From an uncultured Alphaproteobacteria bacterium (GTDB lineage: Bacteria; Pseudomonadota; Alphaproteobacteria; Rhodobacterales; Rhodobacteraceae): DNA of 32,035 nucleotides. Below are positions 5,736-31,689 of this stretch, piece by piece. The stretch covers positions 1 through 32,035 of the forward strand of contig CACNDI010000023.1 of the NCBI GenBank assembly GCA_902619165.1, read 5' to 3'. The notes under the pieces were generated by a model. It was given only the letters and a program-made list of their open reading frames with translations, did no database searches and was not told the origin of the DNA. The first letter of the stretch is position 1; every line of letters starts with the position of its first letter. The translations under genes were made by a program, and so were the position numbers.

Positions 5736-6584
5736 TTATTTATTCGCCGATACGTAATTGAGGCATGCCTTATACGTAATTTCTTTTCCACTTTGTCGTT
5801 GCTCACATAGTTTTATGATTTCATTTTTTATCATCGCGATTTTTTCGCTTGATAAATTTTCTTCTGATAAAATTCTTGCTCTCGGACCAATCCCCATTAG
5901 AAGTTCAGCATCTTTCTCGGTGCTATCTTTCGTTGAGATAAAAGTATAAACCTTATCAACACTTATATTTTTAAATCCAGCCGATTCTAAGACTTCTTTA
6001 ATATATTCAGGCTCACTGAATGCAAAGGGACCTGGGTCATTTGTTACCTCTGGAAGAACTTTCTGAGTATATTTAGTGATAATATCCATACCTTCAATTA
6101 TAAACTCATTCTCCATCATATTTGTCCAACACACAAAATTTAGAGAACCACTTGTCTTTAAAGAACAATAAATATTTTTGAAGGCTTCTAAGGGACTTTC
6201 GAAAAACATTACACCAAATCGAGATATAACTTTATCAAAGTAATTTTCATCAAAAGAATAATTCTGAGCATCACAATGCACAAATGTCATTGTATCGATA
6301 TCTGAAAATTTACTTTTTGCATGATCAAGCAAAGTTTTAGAAATATCCGCTCCAACAACATGTCCAGCATCAGCCAATAATTTTGATACTCGAAAAGTTG
6401 TATCACCACCTCCACACCCGATATCTAAAACTTTATCCGATGCCTTTATCTTCACTCTCGAAAAAAATTCGTCAGTTAGTATTGATAATCGCTCATTTAG
6501 TGCATTCTCATTTTTGACCCACTTAGGCCCAGATTTTTCGTTCCAATATTCGGATTGTTCAACATTGATAATTTTTTGTTTCAT
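5736..6584 (-). CDS. class I SAM-dependent methyltransferase (UbiE/Methyltransf_11-25 type)
   Basis: A 282-residue Rossmann-fold methyltransferase. Motif I is VLDIGCGGG at residues 52-60, the acidic end of strand beta-2 is GADIS near 78-82, and CDAQNYSF precedes the strand-4 segment (FDKVISRFGVMFF). WNEKSGPKWV near the N-terminus is common in this group, which acts on small molecules such as quinones, sterols or phospholipids. It lies 14 bp downstream of the iron-sulfur cyclase gene with a good ribosome site (AAGGCAAGG), so the two are almost surely cotranscribed. Whether the cyclase and methyltransferase work together is not known. The substrate is not readable. Confidence 0.85.
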   Translation of the reverse strand: MKQKIINVEQSEYWNEKSGPKWVKNENALNERLSILTDEFFSRVKIKASDKVLDIGCGGGDTTFRVSKLLADAGHVVGADISKTLLDHAKSKFSDIDTMTFVHCDAQNYSFDENYFDKVISRFGVMFFESPLEAFKNIYCSLKTSGSLNFVCWTNMMENEFIIEGMDIITKYTQKVLPEVTNDPGPFAFSEPEYIKEVLESAGFKNISVDKVYTFISTKDSTEKDAELLMGIGPRARILSEENLSSEKIAMIKNEIIKLCEQRQSGKEITYKACLNYVSANK

Positions 6585-6598
6585 ATCGTGCCTTGCCT

Positions 6599-8134
6599 TT
6601 AAGCTTTCTGAATCCAGATATAGCTATCTGCTTCCAGTGTGGGAATAACTGTAAGTGGCTCGCAATCTTTTTCTACTTCTTTAGGTTGTAATCCAACCCA
6701 TTTTCTCACTTCACCTGATCTAAAACAAAACTCACTATTATGATAGGGACATAAGATAGTTCCTTCATCTGTTATCTGACCTATGTCCAATGGTAAATTC
6801 ATATGTGGACATATATTCTCAATAGCAAAGATTCCTTCCTGATTTATAAGAAGAAATTCTTTTCCATTATATTCAAACTTTTTCTTTTCTCCAACATCGA
6901 GCTCACTAATAGGCAAGGTCCTTATCCAAGTATTGCCATCAATCTCTTTTACTTTAATATCTGCGTGATCTACTAGCTTATCTTTATTAAGACCACTAAC
7001 CTCATGCAAGGTAATTAAGTTACTAGATCCCCTTAATTTTAATCGAACAAAATTTCTTACATCAACTGCATCTTTTATTCTTTCATAAGCAACATCGGAA
7101 ATAAGGAAACGTGTTCCCGCCTCTTTATTTATAGCTTCAATTCTACTGGCGATATTTACAGTGTCTCCAATTATGGTAAATTTTTTGTCTTCGCCAAAAC
7201 CAACAGAACCTAGAATAGCTTCACCATAATGAATACCTATTCGTATATCAAAATCTCTACCGTAAGCTTGAGACAGATAATCCTTAAATTCGTCCATAGC
7301 TTGTAGCATTTCTAACGCTGTATTTGCTGCTCTAAGTGTCTGTTGTCTTGAGTCTTTGAGACCAAAGATAGCCAGAATTGCATCACCAATATAATTATTT
7401 ATCTCCCCACCATTTTTAATGATGATTTCGCGCATTATAGAGATGTATCTATTTAAAATGAATATCACATCATAAGCAGCAAGCGCCTCAGAAAAAGGGG
7501 TAAAACCCTTAATATCGACAAACATCACCGTCAGATTTCTTATAGTACCGACGGACTCTAGTTTCGTATCGGACAATTTATTTGAATTACTCAAATCCCT
7601 CTTGTCGAGGAGAAGTCTTCTGTACGAAACAGGTCCACTTATTGTGGTTTGGCAGGCAAGTCTTATATTTTCCGGAAAGGAAAGCTTATCCGATAGCTTT
7701 CTCTCAGCATCTGACCTAGGAGAACAATTTTCTAATCCTTCTGTAATTTCAACTCTGCAAGTCGAGCATTTTCCAGTACCTCCGCAAGCACTTAAGTGAG
7801 ATATATTATTTCTTATTGATGCTGTGAGTATTGTTTCATTTACACCTACCTCTATTTTTTTCTTGTCAGGTTGTACTATTGCTGAGAAGAGATCTCCATC
7901 ATTAAAACTTTTTTCTGGTCTATTATGGCTACCATCACAGAAAGGTTTGTTTTGTGTTTTTTTACATGTGCAGAAATATTTCGTCTCTGTTTTTTCCGCT
8001 ACATATTTTAAGGGTGTGAATTCACTGCCCGCATGACTGCCATCACAAAAAGGCTGATTTTTACTCTTTCCACAACTACACCAAAAGTAGCTTTTATCTT
8101 TCTCGACATCATGAGGTATAGGTTTAAATTTCAT
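6599..8134 (-). CDS. multi-iron-sulfur class III nucleotide cyclase: CDGSH-CDGSH-ferredoxin-cyclase-Rieske
   Basis: Five domains lie in one 511-residue chain. Two CDGSH (mitoNEET-type) 2Fe-2S sites come first (C19, C21, C30, H34 and C55, C57, C66, H70). A plant/adrenodoxin-type 2Fe-2S ferredoxin follows (C117-x5-C123-x2-C126-x34-C161). Next is a class III nucleotidyl cyclase domain (about 195-380) with both metal Asp (D207 in VDIKGF, D251 in YIGD) and the transition-state pair N327/R331 of VNIASR. Last is a Rieske 2Fe-2S domain (C442-x-H444, C462-x2-H465). All sixteen predicted cluster ligands are present, and the catalytic Asp/Asn/Arg set suggests an active cyclase. The purine-selecting Lys position reads N247 with T320 as partner. 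There is no signal peptide or membrane helix, so it is cytoplasmic. Redox or iron-sulfur status probably gates cAMP (or cGMP) synthesis; that is inference. Confidence 0.9.
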   Translation of the reverse strand: MKFKPIPHDVEKDKSYFWCSCGKSKNQPFCDGSHAGSEFTPLKYVAEKTETKYFCTCKKTQNKPFCDGSHNRPEKSFNDGDLFSAIVQPDKKKIEVGVNETILTASIRNNISHLSACGGTGKCSTCRVEITEGLENCSPRSDAERKLSDKLSFPENIRLACQTTISGPVSYRRLLLDKRDLSNSNKLSDTKLESVGTIRNLTVMFVDIKGFTPFSEALAAYDVIFILNRYISIMREIIIKNGGEINNYIGDAILAIFGLKDSRQQTLRAANTALEMLQAMDEFKDYLSQAYGRDFDIRIGIHYGEAILGSVGFGEDKKFTIIGDTVNIASRIEAINKEAGTRFLISDVAYERIKDAVDVRNFVRLKLRGSSNLITLHEVSGLNKDKLVDHADIKVKEIDGNTWIRTLPISELDVGEKKKFEYNGKEFLLINQEGIFAIENICPHMNLPLDIGQITDEGTILCPYHNSEFCFRSGEVRKWVGLQPKEVEKDCEPLTVIPTLEADSYIWIQKA

Positions 8135-8173: not shown

Positions 8174-8560
8174 CTATTTGACAACAATGCTATGATCCGA
8201 ATCAAATGCTTTTTTTTCAGAATTAACCATTAAATACTTAATCTGACCGGAATTAATTGAAAATCTTATATTAGTTCCCAGAAATTTACGATATTCCACA
8301 TCGTCCCGGATAGTTAGCGTATATCGACCTCGGATTAACCTCTTCTTAATAATTTGATTTTCTCCTAGCATCCCCAAAACTTTACCATTCAAAATAACTG
8401 TAAAACGGCCAAACATGCCCGGTATTCCAGTGGAACGACCAAGTACAAGTGTACCGTGATCAGAAGATGTGGAAGCAACATTTAATAACTGGGGAGAGGC
8501 TCCAACATCGCACGAGACCAACAGGAAAATCAGCGTGAATATTTGAAACAGCCTTACCAT
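8174..8560 (-). CDS. small predicted lipoprotein, DUF2846-like
   Basis: A 128-residue protein that starts with a hydrophobic signal segment and a lipobox LVSC, putting the lipidated cysteine at C17. The rest is beta-rich; the segment RFTVILNGKVLGMLGE followed by RGRYTLTI resembles the DUF2846 pattern (strand, V/L-N-G-K-x-x-G, then G-x-H/Y-T-L). The family call is tentative, the lipoprotein call firmer. It lies 39 bp upstream of the iron-sulfur cyclase in the same direction, so it may be the first gene of that transcript. The ribosome site is poor: the purine run AAAGAG abuts the ATG. No function is known. Confidence 0.7.
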   Translation of the reverse strand: MVRLFQIFTLIFLLVSCDVGASPQLLNVASTSSDHGTLVLGRSTGIPGMFGRFTVILNGKVLGMLGENQIIKKRLIRGRYTLTIRDDVEYRKFLGTNIRFSINSGQIKYLMVNSEKKAFDSDHSIVVK

Positions 8561-15415: not shown

Positions 15416-15485
15416 TTAACTGTTGAAGGGACTGGATTCTCCAAGAATTCTTGTCTTTTTAAATATAAATGGAGGAAAATTATTC

Positions 15486-16412
15486 ATGAAAAAAATATTA
15501 GTTACATTGATAGCGCTAGTTCTATCAACTGGTGTTTCTTTTGGTGCAGATCATAAAGCAAACATTATCGTGGTAACTCACGGATCTGATACAGACGCCT
15601 TTTGGGGAGTCGTTAGAAATGGAGTTGAGGCTGCAAAGGCAGACACCGGTGCGGATGTTCAATACAGAAACCCACCAACTGGAGACTTAAACGAAATGGC
15701 ATCTTTGATTGAAGCTGCTATTGCTCAGAAGCCAGATGGTATTGTCGTTTCAATACCTGCACCAGATATTTTAGGTGGACCAATTAAGGCAGCTGTTGCA
15801 GCAGGAATTCCAGTTATATCAATGAATTCTGGAGCCGGCGTTTCAAAAAGCTTAGGTGCTGTAATGCACGTTGGACAACCTGAATATGAAGCTGGTCTAG
15901 GTGGCGGCGAAAAAAGCAAAGGGTTGGGTGGAAAGAACTCAGTTTGCTTTAACCACGAGCCAATGAATACAGCTCTTAAAGATAGATGCCAAGGTTTTGC
16001 TGACGGTATGGGTGAGAAGTTAAATATGGTTGAGGTTTCATCAGATTTCGATGATATCAAAAACACCGTTATCGCACATATGTCTTCCAATCCAGATACA
16101 GGAGCTATAATGGCCGTTGGTCCTACTGGTTGTGATCCAACTATAGCTGCTCTTAAGGAAATGGGTAAAGCTGGAAAAGTAGTTTTAGGTTGTTTTGACC
16201 TCGGACCAGCAATTGTTGATGGAATAATTGACGGTACAGTTAACTACGCCATCGACCAGCAGCAATTTTTGCAAGGCTACGTACCAGTGGTAGTACTACA
16301 TCTAAATCATAGAAATGGTACTCTTCCAGGTAATTCAATTAACTCAGGTCCAGGTTTTGTGACAAAGGGAAATGTTGAATTAGTGAAGAAACTAGCAGGA
16401 AAAGAAAGATAA
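15486..16412 (+). CDS. periplasmic sugar/inositol-binding protein of an ABC transporter
   Basis: The start is ATG 15486, supported by GGAGG ten bases upstream and by the signal peptide that immediately follows (MKKILVTLIALVLSTGVSFG, cleavage likely after G20). The mature 288 residues are a ribose-binding type (Peripla_BP_4) protein: IIVVTHGSDTDAFWG, NPPTGDLNEMASLIEAAI, KPDGIVVSIPAP and FDLGPAIVDGI are typical landmarks. It would capture substrate in the periplasm for the permease and ATPase that follow. Inositol as ligand is inferred from the operon. Only this gene is separated from the rest of the operon by a strong hairpin, as is common where the binding protein is needed in excess. Confidence 0.88.
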   Translation: MKKILVTLIALVLSTGVSFGADHKANIIVVTHGSDTDAFWGVVRNGVEAAKADTGADVQYRNPPTGDLNEMASLIEAAIAQKPDGIVVSIPAPDILGGPIKAAVAAGIPVISMNSGAGVSKSLGAVMHVGQPEYEAGLGGGEKSKGLGGKNSVCFNHEPMNTALKDRCQGFADGMGEKLNMVEVSSDFDDIKNTVIAHMSSNPDTGAIMAVGPTGCDPTIAALKEMGKAGKVVLGCFDLGPAIVDGIIDGTVNYAIDQQQFLQGYVPVVVLHLNHRNGTLPGNSINSGPGFVTKGNVELVKKLAGKER

Positions 16413-16441
16413 GAAGTATACCTCTTTCTTATTTATAACGG

Positions 16442-16475
16442 TCTGGCAAATCATAGCGATTTGCCAGATTTATTT
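16442..16475 (+). terminator. intra-operon hairpin after the binding-protein gene
   Basis: A perfect 11-bp stem, TCTGGCAAATC (16442-16452) with GATTTGCCAGA (16458-16468), closes a 5-nt loop and is followed by TTTATTTT. It lies 30 bp past the binding-protein stop and before the permease ribosome site. It probably acts as a partial terminator or 3' mRNA stabiliser. Confidence 0.75.
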
Positions 16476-16486
16476 TAGGGGGACAA

Positions 16487-17545
16487 ATGGCATCTGATGA
16501 ACGCATACGAGATATCGGATTAATCAGAAGATCTATATCTAGACCAGAGTTAGGGTCTGTTTTTGGTTTAATAATAATTGTCATTACTTTTATGACGCTT
16601 ACCTCAATCAGTGGCACCTTTGGAGCAATGTGGCTAAATCCAATTGGAATCCAAGCATGGGTTGAGCTAGCAGCGTTTGTGGGCATCTTAGCTATCGGTG
16701 CCTCTCTTTTGATGATAGCAGGAGAGTTTGATCTCAGCATGGGAGCAAATATTGCTTTAGCCGGACATAGCTTTGCTATTTTTCTTTTATTTGGAGTGCC
16801 CATTGAGTTGGCGATCATTTTAACCTTTATAGAGCTCGCTTTTTTAGGATTTATCATTGGAGTAATTGTTGTCAGAACGGGACTTCCCAGCTTTATTGTA
16901 ACTTTGGCATTTTGGTTTGCTAGTCGAGGGTTTGCAGTATTTCTTAGCCAAACGTTTTTCAATCAATCTAGATTATCTGTGAAGGCAAATCTAAAACCAC
17001 CCCCGGGAGGTGGAGAGGATCCTACACTGATTGATAACATTTTTGCATTTGATAAGGCTTTTGGGGTTCCCTTCGATGCCGAAGTTTATTACTTTATCAT
17101 TCTCGTATTCATAGTTGCTTTCATTACCAATCGAACACCATATGGAAATTGGATATATGCGTCTGGAGGTGACCCGGTGGCTGCAAGAGCTGTTGGTGTT
17201 CCAGTAGCAAGGGTGAAAATTAGCTTATTTATGATCTCGACTTCTCTTGCCTGTCTCTTAGGTATTTTAACCGTAATGACATCTGGTGCATCAGATCCCA
17301 AAGCAGGAGATTTTCGCGAACTACATGCTATTGCAGCGGCGGTTATTGGCGGTTGTGCATTAACCGGCGGTTACGGCTCTGTCGTTGGAGCAGTTCTTGG
17401 GGCATTAATTTTTGCAATCGCAAGCCGAGGAATAAACTTTGTTCCTTTTATCGACAATAACCTTTTTAGGGTGATGCTGGGAATGCTAATTTTAGGATCT
17501 GCTCTTTTAAACCAATTTTTGAGAGACAGGATAGTGAAAGGCTAA
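16487..17545 (+). CDS. sugar ABC transporter permease (RbsC-type)
   Basis: A 352-residue inner-membrane permease of the BPD_transp_2 group, with about eight to ten hydrophobic helices. Family landmarks are AGEFDLSMGANIALAG (the conserved E-F-D-L-S segment), GLPSFIVTLAFWF, the cytoplasmic coupling loop GGDPVAARAVGV with KISLFM, and near the end AAAVIGGCALTGGYGS. A periplasmic insert at about 160-190 (KPPPGGGEDP) is somewhat long. The ribosome site AGGGGGA precedes ATG 16487. It forms the membrane channel with the ATPase gene, whose start is 7 bp after this stop. Confidence 0.92.
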   Translation: MASDERIRDIGLIRRSISRPELGSVFGLIIIVITFMTLTSISGTFGAMWLNPIGIQAWVELAAFVGILAIGASLLMIAGEFDLSMGANIALAGHSFAIFLLFGVPIELAIILTFIELAFLGFIIGVIVVRTGLPSFIVTLAFWFASRGFAVFLSQTFFNQSRLSVKANLKPPPGGGEDPTLIDNIFAFDKAFGVPFDAEVYYFIILVFIVAFITNRTPYGNWIYASGGDPVAARAVGVPVARVKISLFMISTSLACLLGILTVMTSGASDPKAGDFRELHAIAAAVIGGCALTGGYGSVVGAVLGALIFAIASRGINFVPFIDNNLFRVMLGMLILGSALLNQFLRDRIVKG

Positions 17546-17552
17546 AGAGACT

Positions 17553-18317
17553 ATGATCCCATCAATTGAATTTAGGGGTGTATCGAAGTTTTTTGGTAAT
17601 ATAATAGCGCTGAAGGATATATCGTTTAAGGTTTTTAAGGGTGAGATAACGGCTTTATTAGGTGATAATGGTGCAGGTAAATCAACACTAATAAAACTGT
17701 TATCTGGGGTCCACATTCCTAGTGAGGGCGAAATACTGCTGAGCGGTGAGCCAGTGAATTTTAAGTCACCAAGACAAGCTGTTTCTGCTGGTATCGGTAC
17801 AGTGTATCAGGACTTGGCGTTACAACCTTTGATGAGTGTGACTAGAAATTTCTTTCTAGGTAGAGAGATTACCAAAGGCTTATTTTTAAATATGCCTCTG
17901 ATGAATACAATCACAAAAAAGGAAATGGCGAAACTGGGTATTGATGTAGCGGACCCAACACAACCGATAGGAACTATGTCAGGTGGTCAAAGACAGACAC
18001 TAGCGATCGCTAGAGCTATTTATTTTGGAGCCAATGTTCTTATTCTGGATGAGCCAACTTCGGCCCTCGGACAAAAACAGCAGTTAGAAGTTTTAAGAAC
18101 TATAAAAAAAGTAAAAGAGTTAGGTGACATAGCCATAATATTCATAACCCATAATGATATGCACGCTAAACTTTTGGGAGATCGTTTTGCTTTTCTGAAC
18201 AGAGGAAAAGTTTTGGCCGAGGGATCAAGAGAGGAAATTGATATGAATAACCTTAGACCCTTGATGGCAGGTGGTGCAGAGTTAGAGAAACTTGAAACAG
18301 AATTCTCTGGAAGATAG
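17553..18317 (+). CDS. sugar ABC transporter ATP-binding protein (single domain, FrcA-like)
   Basis: A 254-residue ATPase with one nucleotide-binding domain, unlike the double-domain RbsA/MglA type, and so resembling FrcA. Walker A is GDNGAGKST (37-45), the Q-loop is Q86 (VYQDLAL), the signature is SGGQ (143-146), Walker B is LILDEP (D166, E167) and the switch His is H200 (ITHND). It energises import through the adjacent permease. ATG 17553 lies 7 bp after the permease stop, so translation is probably coupled. Confidence 0.93.
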   Translation: MIPSIEFRGVSKFFGNIIALKDISFKVFKGEITALLGDNGAGKSTLIKLLSGVHIPSEGEILLSGEPVNFKSPRQAVSAGIGTVYQDLALQPLMSVTRNFFLGREITKGLFLNMPLMNTITKKEMAKLGIDVADPTQPIGTMSGGQRQTLAIARAIYFGANVLILDEPTSALGQKQQLEVLRTIKKVKELGDIAIIFITHNDMHAKLLGDRFAFLNRGKVLAEGSREEIDMNNLRPLMAGGAELEKLETEFSGR

Positions 18318-18368
18318 TAGTGATTTAAAAGGGGAAAACATCAGCTTTTTGAAAGGCTTAAAAGTAAA

Positions 18369-20276
18369 ATGGTTAATCAAAAAAATGATCTTGATGTAAT
18401 AACAATTGGACGATCTTCAGTAGATTTATATGGAGGGCAAGTTGGAGGACGACTCGAAGATATGACGTCGTTCCAAAAATACATTGGGGGTAGTCCTACT
18501 AACATTAGCATTGGAGCATCAAGATTAGGTTTGAGATCTGCGGTCATTACAAGAGTAGGTGATGAGCATTTCGGGCGATTTATTACTGAGCAATTAACTA
18601 GAGAGGGTGTAAACACAGAGGGAATTATTATTGATAAGGAACGTCTGTCCGCTCTCGCTATTTTAGGAATTCGCGATAAGGAACAATTCCCTTTATTATT
18701 TTACCGTGAGAATTGTGCTGATATGGGCCTCACAAAGAATGAAATTGATCCAGATTTTATTAAACGCGCAAAATGTGTTGTTGTAACCGGTACCCACTTT
18801 AGCTCGAAGCAAGTATCAGAAGCTTCGTTCCAAGCAATTAACTATGCAAAAAATAATAATGTGCTTGTCGGGTTTGATATTGATTATCGTCCGAACCTCT
18901 GGTCCCTAGGCGGTCATGGTGATGGTGAGAGCAGGTTCGAAGAAAGTAAGGTCGTAACAAGTCATGTTCAAAAAATCATACGCCACTGTGATCTTATTGT
19001 AGGAACGGAAGAAGAATGGCATATAGCAGGGGGAACTCAAGACACATTAAAGGCGCTTAGAATCTGTCGTGAACTAACGCAAGCTATAATAGTCTGTAAA
19101 AGGGGCGCCATGGGGTGCACCGTTTTCCCCGATGCTATAATTAACTGGGCTTCAGGTATTTCTGTAAAAGTTAATAAAATTGAGATATTTAATGTCCTGG
19201 GTGCTGGTGATGGCTTTATGGCAGGTTTTTTATATGGTTGGTTAAATGACCAGTCGTTGGAATTATGCGCGAAGTATGCCAATGCATGTGGTGCTTTAGC
19301 AGTCTCTCGACATGGATGTGCACCAGCTTATCCATCTAAAATAGAGTTAGAACACTACCTCAAAAATGGAAGCCAGCACTTTTCTTTAAGACAAGATACA
19401 TTTCTAGAACAACTGCATTGGAGTACGAATAGAAGAAAGAGTTTTGATAACCTTTTTACTTTGGCAATAGATCACAGAGTGCAATTTAAAAAGCTAGCAG
19501 AGGAAAATGAAAAACAAAAAGAGGATATCGCTGTTTTCAAATCAATGGCATTAGAGGCCTGTTTGGAGGCACAAAAAACTGAGCAAGAAAATGTAGGTAT
19601 CCTTTTAGATGAAGAATATGCAGAAAGCTCTTTGCATGCCACGTCTGATCATGACATATGGATTGGTAGACCAATTGAAAAGGCAGGTGTATTTCCTTTA
19701 GAATTAACTGAGGAGCCTGATATAGGATCACGACTCGCAAACTGGCCAGTCAATCATTGTGTGAAAGTCTTGGCACCCTTAAGAAATGATGATCCAAAAG
19801 AAATCTATGAACATCAAGTAAAACTTTTAAGTCAATTAGCGCAAGCGTGTAGGCTTACTAACCATGAACTATTATTGGAGATTATTACAAAAAGAAATGA
19901 CAAAGCTAGCTCTCCTGAGCAGATCCTATCTCTTATGCAGAAATTGTATGAAGATAATATTTATCCCGATTGGTGGAAACTAGAGCCTATTGAAAATGTC
20001 GAGTTTTGGTCAAAAGCCAATGATATCGTACAGCAGTTTGATCCATATGCCCAAGGAATAATCGTTTTGGGCATGGATGCGCCCTCAGATAAATTGGCTT
20101 CAGTTTTTGATCTATGTAAAAATTATAAATACGTAAAGGGGTTCGCAGTAGGACGGTCGATATTTTTTGAAACAGCCAGAAAGTGGTTTGGAAATAAAAT
20201 AACTAATCAACAAGCAAAGTATGAGATGTTTAATAAATTTACTACGCTTATAAAGTTATGGAAGAGGAAAAATTAA
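18369..20276 (+). CDS. iolC: bifunctional 5-dehydro-2-deoxygluconokinase (IolC) with C-terminal DUF2090 aldolase-like domain
   Basis: The N-terminal PfkB kinase (about residues 8-330) phosphorylates 5-dehydro-2-deoxy-D-gluconate. It carries IGGSPTNISIGASRLG, the anion-hole/catalytic motif GAGDG with D281, and the start IGRSSVDLYG typical of IolC. From about residue 345 a DUF2090 domain follows (LFTLAIDHRVQF with the conserved D-H-R; WWKLEP near 560; GFAVGRSIFF near the end). This fusion is widely annotated as kinase plus 5-dehydro-2-deoxyphosphogluconate aldolase. The 635-residue length is normal for the fusion. It is 51 bp after the ATPase gene, and iolD starts two bases after its stop. Confidence 0.92.
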   Translation: MVNQKNDLDVITIGRSSVDLYGGQVGGRLEDMTSFQKYIGGSPTNISIGASRLGLRSAVITRVGDEHFGRFITEQLTREGVNTEGIIIDKERLSALAILGIRDKEQFPLLFYRENCADMGLTKNEIDPDFIKRAKCVVVTGTHFSSKQVSEASFQAINYAKNNNVLVGFDIDYRPNLWSLGGHGDGESRFEESKVVTSHVQKIIRHCDLIVGTEEEWHIAGGTQDTLKALRICRELTQAIIVCKRGAMGCTVFPDAIINWASGISVKVNKIEIFNVLGAGDGFMAGFLYGWLNDQSLELCAKYANACGALAVSRHGCAPAYPSKIELEHYLKNGSQHFSLRQDTFLEQLHWSTNRRKSFDNLFTLAIDHRVQFKKLAEENEKQKEDIAVFKSMALEACLEAQKTEQENVGILLDEEYAESSLHATSDHDIWIGRPIEKAGVFPLELTEEPDIGSRLANWPVNHCVKVLAPLRNDDPKEIYEHQVKLLSQLAQACRLTNHELLLEIITKRNDKASSPEQILSLMQKLYEDNIYPDWWKLEPIENVEFWSKANDIVQQFDPYAQGIIVLGMDAPSDKLASVFDLCKNYKYVKGFAVGRSIFFETARKWFGNKITNQQAKYEMFNKFTTLIKLWKRKN

Positions 20277-20278
20277 AA

Positions 20279-22126
20279 ATGAAAACAGTTAAATTAACTG
20301 CAGCGCAGGCTCTGGTAAAGTGGATGATTGCCCAGAAGATTGAACAATTTGATGGATCGTTTGAAATGGCTTTCAAAGGTGTGTGGGGAATATTTGGTCA
20401 CGGTAACGTTGCTGGCATAGGTGAGGCTTTAGAAAAGCACAAATCCGAACTTCCGACCTATAGAGGGCATAACGAGCAAGGCATGGCCCATGCGGCATTA
20501 GCATATACAAAAGAGATGCGAAGGAGAAGGTTTATGGCCGTCACATCATCTATTGGTCCTGGAGCAACCAACCTAGTAACAGCAGCGGCATTAGCTCACG
20601 TTAATAGGCTACCAATTCTTTTACTACCAGGTGATATCTTTGCTGACAGACGCCCTGACCCAGTACTTCAACAGGTTGAAGATTTTGAAGACGGAACTGT
20701 ATCTGCTAATGATTGCTTCAGACCAGTCAGCAGATATTTTGATCGAATAACTAGGCCCGAACAATTACTCAATGCGTTACCAAAAGCCATGTCTATTCTT
20801 ACTGACCCAGCTATGGCTGGCCCTGTTACTCTTGCGTTTTGTCAAGATGTCCAAGCCGAAGCCTATAATTATCCAGAATCTTTTTTTGAAATTGTTCACT
20901 GGAATGTCAGAAGAATTCAACCAGACCGAAGAGAGATAGAGAGGTTGGCTAACTCACTAAAAAAGTCAAAAAAACCTGTAGTAATCGCTGGTGGAGGAGT
21001 AAAATATAGCGATGCGCAAAACGAACTAAAGAAATTTTTAGATCTAACTAAAATACCACTAGTGGCAACACAAGCTGGAAAATCAGTCTTAGTAGAAAAA
21101 GATGAGCAGAACCTTGGATCTATCGGAGTGACAGGTTCTAGTTCAGCCAATGCAATTATATCAGGTGCAGATTTCGTTATTTCCGTAGGAAGTCGCTTGC
21201 AAGATTTTACTACAGGCTCCAACGGACTAATAAAAGCTCCGGTATATTCTATAAATGTTCAGGCACATGATCTAACTAAACACAAGTCCATACCTGTTCT
21301 GGGGGATGCTAAGGAGACACTCCAATTGCTGAGAGCGCTAAGCATAAATTATAAGGTTAGTGCAGACTATATCGCGCATTATTCCCGAGCAAAGGCAAAT
21401 TGGACAAAAGACGTAGACAAAGTAACTTCTCCTAGTTTAATGAATAGTCTACCTGCCGACAGTCAAGTAATCGGAGCAGTAAACCGAAGTGTGCCAGAAA
21501 ACACAATCGTTATAGGCGCGGCAGGGTCAATGCCAGGAGAACTACATAAACTCTGGAGAGTTTTAGATCAAGATACGTATCATATGGAATATGGGTATTC
21601 TTGTATGGGATATGAGGTTTCAGCTGGTATTGGAGTAAATCTCGCTGCACCTAATAGACCAAATGTAATTTTTGCAGGCGATGGCTCTTACCTAATGATG
21701 AATTCGGAACTCGCTACCGCCGCAATGATGGGCGTTTCAATGACTCTCATCCTTACAAATAATAGAGGTTATGGTTGTATTAATCGCTTACAAAAAGCTT
21801 CTGGGGGGACCGAGTTTAACAACCTGTTTTCAGACTCTAAATTCGAGAATCAGATAGAAATTGATTACGTTTCTCATGCAAAATCTATGGGAGCTGAAGC
21901 CACACATGTTTCCGACATAACTGAATTGGAGAGAGAGGTTAAAAGCGCAATTTCAAAAAAGGGCGTTAATGTTATAGTGATAGATACAGATCCAAATATA
22001 AGTACTGAGGAAGGAGGTGCTTGGTGGGATGTGGCGATTCCAGAAACCTTCATCGATAATAGCAAGTCAGATCTTTCAAAGAAGTATTTAGTGGCTAGAG
22101 TAATACAAGACAAAGGATCCAAATAG
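20279..22126 (+). CDS. iolD: 3D-(3,5/4)-trihydroxycyclohexane-1,2-dione hydrolase (IolD)
   Basis: A thiamin-diphosphate enzyme that opens the ring of the diketo intermediate to give 5-deoxy-D-glucuronate. The 615-residue protein has the catalytic Glu E66 in YRGHNEQGMAHA, a central domain with VIAGGGVKYS, and the ThDP/Mg motif GDG (467-469) ending with NN (494-495). I start it at ATG 20279 (MKTVKLTAAQALVKW, the usual IolD opening), with AGAGGA ten bases upstream inside the end of iolC. An in-frame ATG at 20258 would overlap iolC and add seven residues. The stop TAG overlaps the GTG of iolB by one base. Confidence 0.94.
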   Translation: MKTVKLTAAQALVKWMIAQKIEQFDGSFEMAFKGVWGIFGHGNVAGIGEALEKHKSELPTYRGHNEQGMAHAALAYTKEMRRRRFMAVTSSIGPGATNLVTAAALAHVNRLPILLLPGDIFADRRPDPVLQQVEDFEDGTVSANDCFRPVSRYFDRITRPEQLLNALPKAMSILTDPAMAGPVTLAFCQDVQAEAYNYPESFFEIVHWNVRRIQPDRREIERLANSLKKSKKPVVIAGGGVKYSDAQNELKKFLDLTKIPLVATQAGKSVLVEKDEQNLGSIGVTGSSSANAIISGADFVISVGSRLQDFTTGSNGLIKAPVYSINVQAHDLTKHKSIPVLGDAKETLQLLRALSINYKVSADYIAHYSRAKANWTKDVDKVTSPSLMNSLPADSQVIGAVNRSVPENTIVIGAAGSMPGELHKLWRVLDQDTYHMEYGYSCMGYEVSAGIGVNLAAPNRPNVIFAGDGSYLMMNSELATAAMMGVSMTLILTNNRGYGCINRLQKASGGTEFNNLFSDSKFENQIEIDYVSHAKSMGAEATHVSDITELEREVKSAISKKGVNVIVIDTDPNISTEEGGAWWDVAIPETFIDNSKSDLSKKYLVARVIQDKGSK

Positions 22127-22926
22127 TGAGCAAGCTCCTAATTAATCCAGATTTGAAATCTATGAGATTACATAACATCACTCCTTCAAGTGCTGGCTGG
22201 AAATATGTTGGATTAGAGGTTTATAAAGCTTTTAAAGGAAATAAGTTCTCTAGAAATGGTGACTCACGAGAGGTCTGCGTTGTGTTATTAAGTGGAGAAA
22301 TAAACTTTTTTTTAAATGGAGAAGAAGTTGGGAACTTTAAAGGCAGAAGTTCAGTTTTTGATAACAAGGCACCTTTTGCGTTTTACTGTCCAGCCAATCA
22401 TAGCTTTGAAATAAATACACTTACAGATTGTGAGTTTGCTTATTGCACAGCACCCGGCTTAACTCAGGATCAAGAATTTCGCGTAATTATACCAGAGAAA
22501 ATGGAAAAAGAAAAAAGGGGGGAAGGTTCCAACACTAGATATGTTTGCAACATACTTCCAGAAACTGAGCCAGCTGATAGCTTATTAGTAGTTGAGGTTA
22601 TTACTCCATCAGGAAACTGGTCCTCCTATCCGCCTCACAAACATGATCAGGACAATTTACCAACAGAGTCCTATCTTGAAGAAACGTACTATCATAGAAT
22701 AGATCCTTCGCAAGGATACGTAACTCAACGCGTATACACAGACGATTTGAGTATTAATGAATCCATGTCGCCCTCTGATAAAAGTGTCGTACTAGTTCCG
22801 GCTGGCTATCATCCAGTTGGTGTCCCACATGGGTATAAAAGTTATTATTTAAATGTAATGGCAGGTCCCAAGAGAGTTTGGAAGTTTAAAAATGATCCAA
22901 ATCATGATTGGATAGTGAATAAATAG
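22126..22926 (+). CDS. iolB: 5-deoxy-glucuronate isomerase (IolB)
   Basis: It isomerises 5-deoxy-D-glucuronate to 5-dehydro-2-deoxy-D-gluconate. The 266-residue bicupin matches IolB closely: GNWSSYPPHKHD with metal ligands H171 and H173, LEETYYHRI with E185/E186 and H190, VPAGYHPVG with H229, and YYLNVMAGP with WKFKNDPNHDW at the C-terminus. GTG 22126 overlaps the last base of the iolD stop codon, a clear translational coupling. This is the canonical copy; a more diverged copy lies at 24839. Confidence 0.94.
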   Translation: MSKLLINPDLKSMRLHNITPSSAGWKYVGLEVYKAFKGNKFSRNGDSREVCVVLLSGEINFFLNGEEVGNFKGRSSVFDNKAPFAFYCPANHSFEINTLTDCEFAYCTAPGLTQDQEFRVIIPEKMEKEKRGEGSNTRYVCNILPETEPADSLLVVEVITPSGNWSSYPPHKHDQDNLPTESYLEETYYHRIDPSQGYVTQRVYTDDLSINESMSPSDKSVVLVPAGYHPVGVPHGYKSYYLNVMAGPKRVWKFKNDPNHDWIVNK

Positions 22927-22952
22927 ATTGTTTTAAAGAAAGTGAGTTGTAT

Positions 22953-23852
22953 ATGGAGGTAAAGCTTGGTATGTCGCCAATTTCATGGACTAATGATGAT
23001 TTACCTGAACTTGGAGGTGATACGAGTTTAGAAACATGCTTAAAAGAAACACGATTGGCTGGATTTTCAGGTACTGAGTTAGGTGGAAAATTTCCAAAGA
23101 ACCCTTCTAGCCTTAAAGAAGTTTTAGAAGAGCATGAATTAAAGCTTATTTCCGGTTGGTATTCTGGCACAATGCTAAATAACAATCTAAAAGACGAAAA
23201 AATTAAACTAGATGAAACTTTAAATTTATTTGCCGAAGTTGGTGCGAGCGTTTTAGTTTATGGTGAAACGTTCAATACAGTTCAAAACAAAAAGAATAAA
23301 CCCTTAAATTCGAGGCCGAGATTATCCGAATTTGATATTAAGCAATACGGCCGAGATTTAGGTGATCTAGCCGATTATTGCTTAGACAAAGGCGTACCAT
23401 TGACCTTTCATCACCATATGGGTACAGCCGTAGAGACACAAAATGAGATCGAGCAATTAATGAATAGCACTAGAGACTCAGTTGGTCTTCTTCTAGACAC
23501 AGGACATCTTTTATTTGCCGACGGTGATTATGATAAAATTATTTCTAATTATGGGGATAGAATAAATCATATTCATACAAAAGATATTAGAAAGGACGTT
23601 TTCAAGAATGTGGATAAAAGTAAAGATAGCTTTTTAGACTGTGTATTGGATGGCGTGTTTACAGTGCCAGGAGATGGTTGCATTAATTATCGAAAGTTTA
23701 TCAAACGGCTTAAAGATATTAGATACAAAGGTTGGATAGTGATTGAAGCAGAGCAAGATCCTCTGAAAGCCAATCCATTTGAGTACGCAAAAAAGGGTTT
23801 CAATACCTTATTTTCCTGCTTAGAAGAATATGATTTTAAGATAATTGCCTAA
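22953..23852 (+). CDS. iolE: inosose dehydratase (IolE)
   Basis: It dehydrates 2-keto-myo-inositol to the diketone used by IolD. The 299-residue TIM barrel of the AP-endonuclease-2 type has KLGMSPISWTNDDLPELGG at the N-terminus, TELGG, HHHMGT (153-158), DTGH (182-185), HTKD (208-211) and EAEQDP (265-270); D182, H208 and E265 are likely metal ligands. I use ATG 22953 because the conserved V-K-L-G strand would be lost at the next ATG (22971), even though a GGAGGT ten bases before 22971 makes that start possible. It is 26 bp after iolB. Confidence 0.92.
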   Translation: MEVKLGMSPISWTNDDLPELGGDTSLETCLKETRLAGFSGTELGGKFPKNPSSLKEVLEEHELKLISGWYSGTMLNNNLKDEKIKLDETLNLFAEVGASVLVYGETFNTVQNKKNKPLNSRPRLSEFDIKQYGRDLGDLADYCLDKGVPLTFHHHMGTAVETQNEIEQLMNSTRDSVGLLLDTGHLLFADGDYDKIISNYGDRINHIHTKDIRKDVFKNVDKSKDSFLDCVLDGVFTVPGDGCINYRKFIKRLKDIRYKGWIVIEAEQDPLKANPFEYAKKGFNTLFSCLEEYDFKIIA

Positions 23853-23857
23853 GTTTA

Positions 23858-24829
23858 ATGACCATCGAATTACCCATAAAATTAAAACAACGAATGGCAA
23901 AGCGTCAATTTGTAATTGTAGGAAGAGCTGGAATGGACCTTTACCCTAAACCAGCCAATAAACAAACGAGTGAAGCCGGTACATTTATCTCTGATTTGGG
24001 GGGATCTGCTGCAAACATTGCTGTTTCTATTTCCAAACTGGGAGGTCGTTCTCAAATTATAACTGTGGTCTCAGATGATGAAATTGGTAATTTTGTTTGG
24101 AAAAAATTAGAAGAGCATAAAGTAGATACTTCACTAGTAACCAAGTCTCAAAATAATAATGCTCGTACATCACTTGCAATAGCAGAGATAAGAGAAGAGC
24201 CAAAGGTCGTTATCTATCGTAATAATGCCGCTGATCTTTTGATAGATAAACAAAATATTGATAGCTTAAATCTAGAGAATTATGCCGGTATTGTGATCAC
24301 TGGAACTGCGCTTTCGGATGAACCATCGAGATCAACAATAAACCTACTTATCGAAAAATCAAAAAATGCAAAATGCCCTGTTATATTCGACGTTGATTAC
24401 AGAGCAAATGCCTGGACTTCAATATCATTGGCATCCGCTGAACTTCGAGGAGTTGCAAAAATAGCTGATATGTGTGTTGGCAATAGAGAAGAGTTTGAAA
24501 TAATGTTTGAACAAACGGATTTACGAAAGGTCAGTGCTAATTTTAATCCAAACCAACTAGTGTTATTCAAAAAAGGAGCTGATGGTTGTGACATTATTTT
24601 AGATGGTGAAACGGAGTCATATACCGTGTTTAAAGTGAAAGCAAAGAAACCATACGGAGCTGGTGATGCATTCTTAGGTACAATTCTTCACTCACTCTCA
24701 AATGGATTATGTTTAGAATCAGCTATAAAAAGAGGTAACGCGTCTGCAGCTATTGTCGTTTCGAAAGAAGGATGCTCATCGGCGATGCCCAATCTTAACC
24801 AGCTAATTGAATTTATCGAGACACATTAG
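23858..24829 (+). CDS. second PfkB sugar kinase, IolC-like, without DUF2090
   Basis: A 323-residue ribokinase-family enzyme. It shows VGRAGMDLYP at the N-terminus (as in IolC), SDLGGSAANIAVSISKLGG, IFDVDYRANAW (matching FDIDYRPNLW in the fused IolC) and the catalytic GAGDAF with D270. These shared positions make it an IolC paralogue rather than a generic sugar kinase. It starts 5 bp after iolE and is followed 9 bp later by a second IolB-like gene, so it belongs to the same operon. Likely substrate: 5-dehydro-2-deoxygluconate or a stereoisomer. Which kinase serves the main pathway cannot be told from sequence. Confidence 0.85.
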   Translation: MTIELPIKLKQRMAKRQFVIVGRAGMDLYPKPANKQTSEAGTFISDLGGSAANIAVSISKLGGRSQIITVVSDDEIGNFVWKKLEEHKVDTSLVTKSQNNNARTSLAIAEIREEPKVVIYRNNAADLLIDKQNIDSLNLENYAGIVITGTALSDEPSRSTINLLIEKSKNAKCPVIFDVDYRANAWTSISLASAELRGVAKIADMCVGNREEFEIMFEQTDLRKVSANFNPNQLVLFKKGADGCDIILDGETESYTVFKVKAKKPYGAGDAFLGTILHSLSNGLCLESAIKRGNASAAIVVSKEGCSSAMPNLNQLIEFIETH

Positions 24830-29823: not shown

Positions 29824-31689
29824 ATTAACACCATAAATAGAAAAATAGCAGTAATTTTTGCTACTGACGTCGTTGGTTATAGCAAGCATATGGAAAAAAA
29901 TGAGAATGAGTCAGTAAAAACTCTTAGAGCGTGCGAAAATATTCTCAAAGATCTGTTCAAAAAATATGAAGGGCGTCTCTTTAATTCTGGCGGCGACTCT
30001 TTCTTTGCCGAATTCCCTAGTGCCGTATCAGCTGTTGAATGCGCATCTGAATTTCAGGGACGTCTAAAAGAATTTTACTCTCAGAATAATCTTCCAATAA
30101 AGTTGCAATTTCGAGTTGGAATACATATGGGTGACGTAATAAAAGAGAAGCGAAATCTTCTTGGAGATGGCGTTAATATTGCAGCGAGACTAGAGGCCTT
30201 GGCTCAACCTTCAGGAGTAACGATTTCTAAGTCAATATTTGATTTAGTTAAAGGAAAAGTAAATTTACCCTTCAATGATCTTGGTTTACAAAAAGTCAAA
30301 GAAAATGAATTTCACGCCTATGATATTCTTTTAAGTAAATCGCAAAAACGAACTCTAAGAACATCTTCAAATCCGATGCTACGAAATTTAGGTATTGTAG
30401 CCTCCGTATTCGCAGTAGTAGTTATTGGAATTATTTTTTATCTCCAATCAGATACAAAACCAGTAAGCAAAATTCAAATGATGCCAACGGATAAACCCTC
30501 AGTTTTGGTCATTCCGTTTGAAAATCAAACTGGGAAATCTGATAATGACTTCATAGGATTTGGAATAACAAGTAATATTATCTCTACCTTATCAATTAAT
30601 GACTCAATATTGGTATCTTCCTCTAGCACTGGTAAATATGTTCAAGAGAAAAATTATTCTGATAGCGAGATATTAGAAAGCTACGGCATTCAATATCTTT
30701 TAAGAGGAGATGTTCAGGGTGCTGAAGGAGCCTATCGCGTTTCCTTACAAATGACTGATCTCAAAAAGAGTGAGGTTGTATGGTCAAAACTTTTTGACTT
30801 TAAAGAGTTAAAGGAACTTTTTCCTGTTCAAGAAAAGATAAGTATAGCCATTTTGGAGCAGATGAGAGTTAAGACAAGCGGATCACAGTTAACCCAGAAA
30901 AATTATTTCACTAACCCAGAAGCGTATAGACATTTTCTCAATGCATGGGCTGCTTTTGGCCTTAAAACGGTGGAGGGCAGTGAAAAAGCCGAAAGGCTAT
31001 GGAAAAAGGCCATAGAGCTAGATCCAAACCACCGACGATTAAATTTTATGATGGCATGGGTTCATTGGAGAAAAGTCACTATGAGAATGTCTGATGATCC
31101 CAAAAGAGATATGGAAAAAGCCTATTCTATTGCATTAAATACAATTGATGAGTTTCCTGATTGGGCAACGCCTAAAACTTTAGCAGGCATGATCGAATTA
31201 TTTTTAAAAAAGTATGACAAAGCCTGTAGTAGAATACCCACATTGATAAAGGAAGTAAAAGATCTTTCAGATTTAGCCACAGCCAATATCGTTATTCACT
31301 CTTGTGGTAATCTAGGAGAAGCAATAGAAAACTATGAAAAAATAATGTTGTCGAATCCCCACCATGCGGCATGGATATTTTATATGTACAATCACGCTTT
31401 AATTGAAAATAAACAATATGAGAAATCTGAGAGCTTCGCGCTTACGAAATTAAATGAAAAGCATAATTGGAGTGGAGTTGACCAAACATTATATTTGCAG
31501 CTTGCTTATCTGTATGAGTTGAAGGGAAGTAAGAAGAAAGCAAAAAAAATGTTCGAGCTACAAAAAGCCATCGACGGAAAGGGTAAAACAGGTGAAATTA
31601 TTCATAAAGAATTTATTACTGCGCGTGATAAAACATATCTTAACGAGTTAATATCTGCCCTCAAACCTTATGGGCTAACTGAAAAATAA
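29824..31689 (+). CDS. membrane class III adenylate cyclase with TPR tail; start codon non-canonical
   Basis: Cyclase domain residues 5-165, one membrane helix near 189-208, a TolB/FlgO-like domain (VLVIPFENQTGKSDNDFIGFG, about 230-350) and C-terminal TPR-like repeats. The conserved N-terminal strand RKIAVIFATDVVGYS with metal Asp D15 is encoded upstream of the first ATG (29890). Starting at 29890 would delete D15 and leave only D58 (GGDSF). The frame is open from 29785 but has no ATG, GTG or TTG. ATT 29824, seven bases after GAGAG, is the best start; ATC 29821 and ATA 29833 are alternatives. The transition-state Asn and Arg (VNIAARLE) are present. The catalytic part is cytoplasmic and the sensor probably periplasmic. 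Family call firm, start tentative. Confidence 0.85.
   Translation: MNTINRKIAVIFATDVVGYSKHMEKNENESVKTLRACENILKDLFKKYEGRLFNSGGDSFFAEFPSAVSAVECASEFQGRLKEFYSQNNLPIKLQFRVGIHMGDVIKEKRNLLGDGVNIAARLEALAQPSGVTISKSIFDLVKGKVNLPFNDLGLQKVKENEFHAYDILLSKSQKRTLRTSSNPMLRNLGIVASVFAVVVIGIIFYLQSDTKPVSKIQMMPTDKPSVLVIPFENQTGKSDNDFIGFGITSNIISTLSINDSILVSSSSTGKYVQEKNYSDSEILESYGIQYLLRGDVQGAEGAYRVSLQMTDLKKSEVVWSKLFDFKELKELFPVQEKISIAILEQMRVKTSGSQLTQKNYFTNPEAYRHFLNAWAAFGLKTVEGSEKAERLWKKAIELDPNHRRLNFMMAWVHWRKVTMRMSDDPKRDMEKAYSIALNTIDEFPDWATPKTLAGMIELFLKKYDKACSRIPTLIKEVKDLSDLATANIVIHSCGNLGEAIENYEKIMLSNPHHAAWIFYMYNHALIENKQYEKSESFALTKLNEKHNWSGVDQTLYLQLAYLYELKGSKKKAKKMFELQKAIDGKGKTGEIIHKEFITARDKTYLNELISALKPYGLTEK

Follow-up and report, generated by a model that had tools for sequence, protein, structure and literature searches.

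A predicted soluble class III nucleotide cyclase with tandem CDGSH, ferredoxin and Rieske iron-sulfur domains in uncultured Rhodobacteraceae

A long open reading frame of an uncultured Alphaproteobacteria bacterium (Rhodobacteraceae) raised the question whether a nucleotide cyclase can carry four iron-sulfur sites of three types in one chain, how such a protein arose and what the sites could do for it. The window, as the whole analysed stretch of 32,035 nucleotides on contig CACNDI010000023.1 is called here, belongs to a genome of 2.28 Mb in 51 contigs which is 87.8% complete. The frame starts with ATG and has 511 codons and no internal stop. Pfam found all domains above their curated cut-offs, namely two zf-CDGSH stretches (63.5 bits, cut-off 29.5), Fer2 in residues 87-165 (41.2, cut-off 21), Guanylate_cyc (PF00211) in residues 198-371 (91, cut-off 21.9) and Rieske (PF00355) in residues 403-479 (55.3, cut-off 20.3). 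An earlier note on this DNA had described two CDGSH sites, a ferredoxin, a class III cyclase domain and a Rieske site in a single 511-residue frame with sixteen intact ligand residues and no frameshift, and this description was confirmed in full. The layout of the locus is given in Table 1.

Table 1. Features of the cyclase gene, its product and the adjoining genes, with positions in the window
Feature	Position	Strand	Basis or remark
Whole CDS, CISD-Fer2-cyclase-Rieske, 511 aa	6599..8134	(-)	ORF and Pfam
N-terminal tandem-CDGSH domain (type 6 CISD), residues 1-72	7919..8134	(-)	Pfam, phmmer, ligands
Fer2 [2Fe-2S] ferredoxin domain, residues 85-170	7625..7882	(-)	Pfam, ligands, alignment
Fer2-cyclase linker, residues 171-198	7541..7624	(-)	Spacing in homologues
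Class III nucleotide cyclase domain, residues 199-384	6983..7540	(-)	Pfam, alignment
C-terminal Rieske-type ferredoxin domain, residues 401-511	6602..6934	(-)	Pfam, ligands
Cyclase positions (assumed roles): metal D207 and D251, base-Lys position N247, T320, transition-state N327 and R331			Alignment
Upstream small protein, weak DUF2846 (below cut-off)	8174..8560	(-)	Ends 39 bp before cyclase start
Downstream SAM methyltransferase	5736..6584	(-)	14 bp after cyclase stop

The ligand residues are C19/C21/C30/H34 and C55/C57/C66/H70 in the CISD part, C117/C123/C126/C161 in Fer2 (C-x5-C-x2-C-xn-C) and C442/H444/C462/H465 in the Rieske domain (C-x-H-x17-C-x2-H). None of the 16 varied among the 14 full-length sequences, of which 12 are from the genus (the window included) and two from another family. 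In one respect the first description was refined, as both CDGSH sites belong to a single tandem domain of type 6, with two C-x-C-x2-(S/T)-x3-P-x-C-D-G-(S/A/T)-H motifs at 19 and 55 (type definitions as in excerpts of PMC5311916 and PMC3174974). Among the best 60 of 104 matches in the sequence search, CISD residues 4-71 matched 3tbn (MmCISD; phmmer E 7.8e-21), the cyclase part matched several bacterial class III structures and the Rieske part matched oxygenase-type ferredoxins. In the relative L023, one motif of the first CISD reads CDGNH and lies outside the published motif.

Matches with E <= 1e-60 were found in 13 of the 22 genomes of the same genus, the window's own included. These carriers are recorded as uncultured Alphaproteobacteria isolates with AG- names (some marked MAG), which we take to be marine single-cell genomes, and as bin TMED198. 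Two of the 13 genus copies are incomplete where their contig ends, L019/L028 at the N-terminus and L020/L029 at the C-terminus, and the full-length genus sequences number 12 with the window and TMED198 included. An assembly chimera was ruled out, because other assemblies carry the gene, among them a full-length copy of 60% identity elsewhere, and the domain order is the same in the 12 full-length genus sequences and in two of another family. The assemblies are drafts in which short tandem repeats, such as a CISD unit of 246 bp, may collapse, which would speak for a chimeric or decaying gene; we see virtually no chance of either. Decay is also at odds with dN/dS: every value that was obtained for the four domains was less than 1, synonymous change being saturated or zero in several comparisons. 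Between the window and L031 the values were 0.05 for CISD, 0.29 for Fer2 (on few changes), 0.04 for the cyclase and 0.055 for Rieske, while the short linkers were loose (0.36 before Fer2 and 0.71 before Rieske). CISD gave 0.21 against L022; Rieske gave 0.47 and Fer2 0.16 against L035, the homologue of 60% identity. Synonymous change was mostly saturated against the clade of 81% identity.

The gene is probably not present in every member of the genus. Among the nine same-genus genomes without a match, only in G004 (77% complete) is the expected site occupied by different genes, in a contig of 3 kb (L108), and this genome has no match with E <= 1e-60 elsewhere. The contig of G001 stops too early, and the other seven gave no match to the flanking gene. 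As G004 has other genes after the same flanking genes, the cyclase gene is probably accessory.

Of 385 genomes sampled across the class, two gave matches that extend from the CISD through the Rieske domain, the window's own and G294 (60% identity, residues 5-508), and two of the ten genomes in the family of G294 possess the full architecture (G294 and G783). No further full-length case appeared, under strict E-value limits, among 398 genomes of the phylum or among 198 genomes that represent 197 genera within the family of the window; some of these sample searches scored few candidates per genome. Proteins that match in the Fer2-cyclase part are common, with 73 of 385 class genomes at E <= 1e-45 (own included), nearly all of them by this part alone. 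Ferredoxin-cyclase fusions, which the earlier note placed in some proteobacteria, are thus not rare. The order Fer2-cyclase-Rieske without CISD was observed on plasmids of Rhizobium etli 8C-3 and R. gallicum, in 3 of 87 genomes of one family (G656, G962, G963) and in 3 of the 198 genomes sampled from the window's family (G886, G938, G954). The two Rhizobium records were the ones in the plasmid collection that spanned at least 80% of the query. In addition to the Rhizobium plasmids, Rieske-bearing cyclases occur in five genera besides the window's (g324, g573, g625, g641 and g231, the last with CISD), one of which might in principle be Rhizobium. As to a mobile or phage origin of the gene, the scan of viral contigs found no relative.

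The earlier note knew of no described protein with this combination. No description of a CISD- or Rieske-bearing cyclase was found among the open-access papers listed, most subscription papers being outside this scope. The singularity which the note implied was too strong, as Rieske-bearing cyclases exist elsewhere and the full combination recurs in a second family. Pfam recorded 23 zf-CDGSH architectures according to an excerpt of PMC5311916, and the present one is possibly among them. A literature hit for cdgSH was rejected, as in the available part of PMC8682488 this is the name of a c-di-GMP gene and no CDGSH protein.

To understand how the architecture was built, a tree was constructed from 54 of the 81 collected rows, comprising all 37 non-membrane and 17 of the 44 membrane rows. 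The 15 CISD-bearing rows fell in one clade of 16 rows (100/98), the sixteenth being the contig-cut L019. This clade is nested in a clade of 25 rows (98/97), which itself lies among soluble Fer2-cyclases and is Rieske-bearing except for L036 (from G102, without the Rieske motif) and the C-terminally cut L020. Several long branches, including L100 and L036, were flagged by the tree program as unsure in place. Taken with the domain architectures, the tree suggests a stepwise build-up in which a soluble Fer2-cyclase gained first a C-terminal Rieske domain, then an N-terminal CISD and finally a second CISD.

Two CISD domains are present in 8 of the 13 N-terminally complete proteins of the genus and one in the other five, including the window's. 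The duplicated form (L022, L023, L024, L025, L027, L029, L030 and L033) brings the number of 2Fe-2S sites to as many as six, and L022, the single protein scanned for duplication, gave four zf-CDGSH stretches in Pfam. The repeat unit is 246 bp in L022 (TRF) and 300 bp in L027 (copy spacing), and the copies are 96.7% identical in DNA in L027 against 89-94% in the other seven. As L027 differs from L022 in unit length and from the other seven in copy identity, the CISD probably was duplicated at least twice. These copy numbers rest on draft assemblies, in which repeats that long can collapse, and in any given genome one or two copies could be an assembly effect; L021, the nearest relative of the window, likewise has a single CISD in a separate assembly.

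The catalytic part has the marks of a class III cyclase. All 81 aligned homologues share D207, D251, N327 and R331; D207 and D251 are presumably the metal-binding Asp residues. N327 and R331 correspond to the transition-state Asn-Arg pair described for class III cyclases in excerpts of PMC4215837. The position of the base-selecting Lys holds Asn (Asn247 in the window protein) in all 15 CISD-bearing rows, and also in the contig-cut L019, whereas 43 of the 44 rows of membrane type have Lys there. Asn (3), Lys (3) and Leu (2) were observed there in the eight Rieske-bearing rows without CISD, and Asp (7), Lys (5) and Asn (1) in the 13 soluble rows without Rieske or CISD. T320 is common to 74 of the 81 homologues. 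Of the Lys and Asp/Thr pair that marks an ATP-specific adenylyl cyclase, the protein has the Thr (T320) and lacks the Lys (N247). Because this Lys is absent, we class the protein as a nucleotide cyclase and presume the use of ATP.

According to the same excerpts, adenylyl cyclases have Lys and Asp at the two base-selecting positions, guanylyl cyclases have Glu at the Lys position, and Thr is among the alternatives at the second position and is found in some guanylyl cyclases (PMC4215837). As aligned, Asn247 fits neither rule. The product might be cGMP, or cAMP together with cGMP, instead of cAMP alone; the uniform Asn247 of the CISD-bearing rows and the Thr at the second position agree with this, and in the sister genus the GMP synthesis genes guaB and guaA flank the cyclase gene in both genomes that have the full architecture, a placement which may be a hint towards GTP. 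We hold such a product to be unlikely, as the residue is Asn and not the Glu of guanylyl cyclases, tblastn found no guaB or guaA match in the window, and the Asn-bearing mycobacterial Rv1900c is said to make mainly cAMP. The protein would most likely be an adenylyl cyclase.

The last Fer2 Cys and the first metal Asp are separated by 42-47 residues in 81 of 81 homologues (46 in the window protein), and the RLACQ before the linker is invariant. Because this spacing and RLACQ are kept whatever flanks them, Fer2 is probably the element that moves the cyclase, with the heme anchor, Rieske and CISD as alternative inputs. No hydrophobic helix was found in the window protein (19-residue Kyte-Doolittle maximum 1.13, nothing above 1.6), and for this reason the input is probably cytosolic. 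On balance, we consider it probable that this is a soluble class III cyclase controlled through the condition of its [2Fe-2S] clusters, with Fer2 as the switch. The enzyme would work as a homodimer. Fer2, at its near-fixed distance from the catalytic core, would contact the cyclase as in proteins of the CyaC kind. As the membrane heme anchor is absent, the input role would pass to the N-terminal CISD and the C-terminal Rieske domain, and the CISD, if its sites are occupied, would contribute two redox-active and releasable clusters. Their oxidation, reduction or loss would act through Fer2 to alter the output of cyclic nucleotide, upwards or downwards, and this would be read by cNMP-binding proteins of the CRP/FNR type. 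Five cNMP-binding domains above cut-off were found in the window's genome. The suggestion of the earlier note that redox or iron-sulfur status is turned into cyclic nucleotide is kept as the best reading, which we infer from the CyaC-like core and the kept Fer2 spacing. The predicted activity and substrate are uncertain because Asn247 replaces the base-selecting Lys, and no biochemistry of any Rieske- or CISD-bearing member was found in the open-access literature. The looser Rieske domain in the comparison with L035 would count against this explanation, and so would the finding that no neighbour gene is conserved across the family in the neighbourhoods examined.

The clusters might act by their mere presence or loss instead. 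The labile CISD clusters, perhaps with that of Rieske, would then report iron or iron-sulfur supply, NO or pH, and a change in folding would pass to the cyclase with no need for electrons to move between clusters. Rieske and ferredoxin clusters are usually stable electron carriers, which does not suit such a role, and the kept Fer2-cyclase spacing and the kinship with a quinone-redox cyclase would be left unexplained. We regard this integrity sensing as rather unlikely, in spite of several properties of NEET proteins that would fit it. NEET clusters are releasable when oxidised and inert when reduced (excerpts of PMC8463382), and CISD3 loses its clusters to iron chelators and is unstable with NO (excerpts of PMC10937110). 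One or two CISD copies in close relatives also suit a sensor dose better than a wire.

A bolder form of the favoured Fer2-switch reading is that the four clusters (six in relatives) of three ligand types make up an intramolecular chain, along which electrons from donors in the cytosol would travel to Fer2 and gate the cyclase. We put this forward tentatively, as a possibility open to considerable doubt. CISD3 is cooperatively redox-active near -31 mV (in the available part of PMC10937110), and 15.8 angstrom separates both clusters of MmCISD (in that of PMC3174974). For the window protein, an AlphaFold2 model from an 18-row alignment was too poor for cluster distances (mean pLDDT 48.5, pTM 0.33, residues 305-511 below 50). 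That the number of CISD domains varies among close relatives does not speak for a rigid electron wire. The CISD could supply or withdraw electrons, or it could act through the loss of its clusters. If such a chain is real, the quinone and heme input of the CyaC kind would have been replaced by soluble NEET and Rieske modules, giving a cytosolic meter of redox potential with cyclic nucleotide output and with its input strength tuned by CISD copies. Bacterial NEET domains have, to our knowledge, no settled function and seldom come coupled to an enzyme activity that can be measured; in a fusion to a cyclase, their redox, lability and pH behaviour could show directly as nucleotide production. The series of Fer2-cyclase, the same with Rieske, with CISD and with a second CISD would form a natural ladder for shifts of redox set-point, and a membrane-bound sister enzyme with four His in the same cell allows comparison.

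The gene neighbourhood was also analyzed. The DUF2846-like gene lies upstream in all eight relatives of the group with 94-99% identity whose flank is available, and only in that group. The SAM methyltransferase gene adjoins the cyclase in some relatives, and other genes take its place in L023 and L031. In the 81% clade (L026:3262-4944, L027:3262-4944, L032:3250-4944), a membrane-type Fer2-cyclase gene was observed about 1 kb upstream, with an opposite-strand gene between. The placement between guaB and guaA in the sister genus holds for two of two carriers (L092:4741-9287 and L099); in G294 the gaps measure 3 and 26 bp. No neighbour, reductase or other, was conserved across the family in the neighbourhoods examined, in which many genes are unannotated. 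A conserved operon partner was rejected, as the neighbourhoods vary between the identity groups and the sister genus. About 3.5 kb before the Fer2-cyclase-Rieske gene of R. etli (L089:1481-2503) lies an ORF which by eye resembles a ferredoxin-containing oxygenase reductase; it is not listed near the R. gallicum copy.

CISD and Rieske might serve a partner protein as docking or cluster-donating parts, the cyclase being merely tethered to them and its redox regulation incidental. The gain and duplication of these modules would be in line with this, and so would G631, where a gene for a type 5 CISD (CDGSH with a glutamate synthase domain) stands directly upstream of a short Fer2-cyclase gene (L097:5247-7711). 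Of the 21 scanned genomes or records that lack a fused CISD (25 loci with about 1-7 kb of flanking DNA), only one has a CDGSH motif nearby, the gene context varies around the family, and the fused protein retains its ligands and spacing, all of which makes such tethering quite improbable. As it is one case in 21, this Rosetta-stone type of neighbour was given no weight for the main reading of a Fer2-switched cyclase either.

The genome of the window has a high cyclase load: in its 2.28 Mb, 24 domains of the class III cyclase type score above cut-off; S. meliloti is said to have 28 (in the available part of PMC10463352). Twelve of the Guanylate_cyc matches score below 60 bits, and 11 of the twelve lie within open frames 590-638 aa long. 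One of the twelve is in the window at 29890-31689, a second cyclase-type gene with an N-terminal Guanylate_cyc match of 32.4 bits and a TPR stretch below cut-off. Positions 538-2184 of the window encode TPR repeats fused to a methyltransferase whose C-terminal part barely reaches the threshold for the arginine methyltransferase oligomerization domain (27.1, cut-off 27), presumably an unusual feature in a bacterium. From 15423 to 24829, Pfam identified parts of a sugar ABC transporter followed by PfkB-DUF2090, a TPP enzyme and a second PfkB, which presumably resembles a myo-inositol catabolism cluster.

Among known systems, the closest in its core is CyaC of Sinorhizobium meliloti, in excerpts of PMC10463352 a quinone- or redox-responsive cyclase with two hemes and a [2Fe-2S] cluster. 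Its membrane part is a six-helix diheme unit, the hemes are oxidised and reduced by ubiquinone, and oxidation can raise activity (PMC10463352). The sequence compared here was L091 of strain Ak57, which is annotated as CyaC and may differ from the studied protein. The window protein shares with it the Fer2 directly before the class III cyclase at near-fixed spacing, the Fer2 Cys and the catalytic Asp, Asn and Arg. It differs in having CISD and Rieske instead of the membrane anchor, and Asn at the base-Lys position. In the membrane-type branch, whose proteins are longer and have a hydrophobic N-terminal part, four His columns before Fer2 were found in 43 of 43 sequences and a fifth in 41 of 43. 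L091 and L002, the membrane-type paralogue in the window's own genome, both keep the four columns, and a crude hydropathy scan gave four and five peaks for L091 and L002. The window protein has no membrane diheme anchor with conserved His and for this reason stands outside the diheme subfamily; by analogy, it may work like the diheme CyaC.

The nearest in layout are the eight Fer2-cyclase-Rieske proteins of R. etli 8C-3, R. gallicum, G656, G886, G938, G954, G962 and G963. They have the same domain order and 37-43% identity to the window protein, and Rieske was above the Pfam cut-off in six of six scanned and was identified by motif in R. gallicum and G963. They differ from the window protein in that neither the protein itself nor the available flank contains a CISD motif, and in seven of them the insertion that separates the Rieske Cys-His pairs is longer. 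We know of none that is characterised. The CISD part resembles the type 6 CISD/NEET proteins MmCISD (3tbn) and human CISD3, which likewise have two CDGSH motifs, with 20 residues between His34 and Cys55, but it is fused to a cyclase; for the tandem CDGSH form, the available part of PMC3174974 names one fusion type, with a glutamate synthase domain (type 5). The Rieske part shares C-x-H-x17-C-x2-H and PF00355 with the Rieske-type ferredoxins HcaC, NirD and MocE, and its best Rieske-type NCBIfam match is HcaC with 39 bits, far under the cut-off of 150. Those ferredoxins are electron donors of oxygenases, whereas here the domain is the C-terminal part of a cyclase. What is new in this locus, as judged from the sequences, is an elaborate variant of the known Fer2 class III cyclases.
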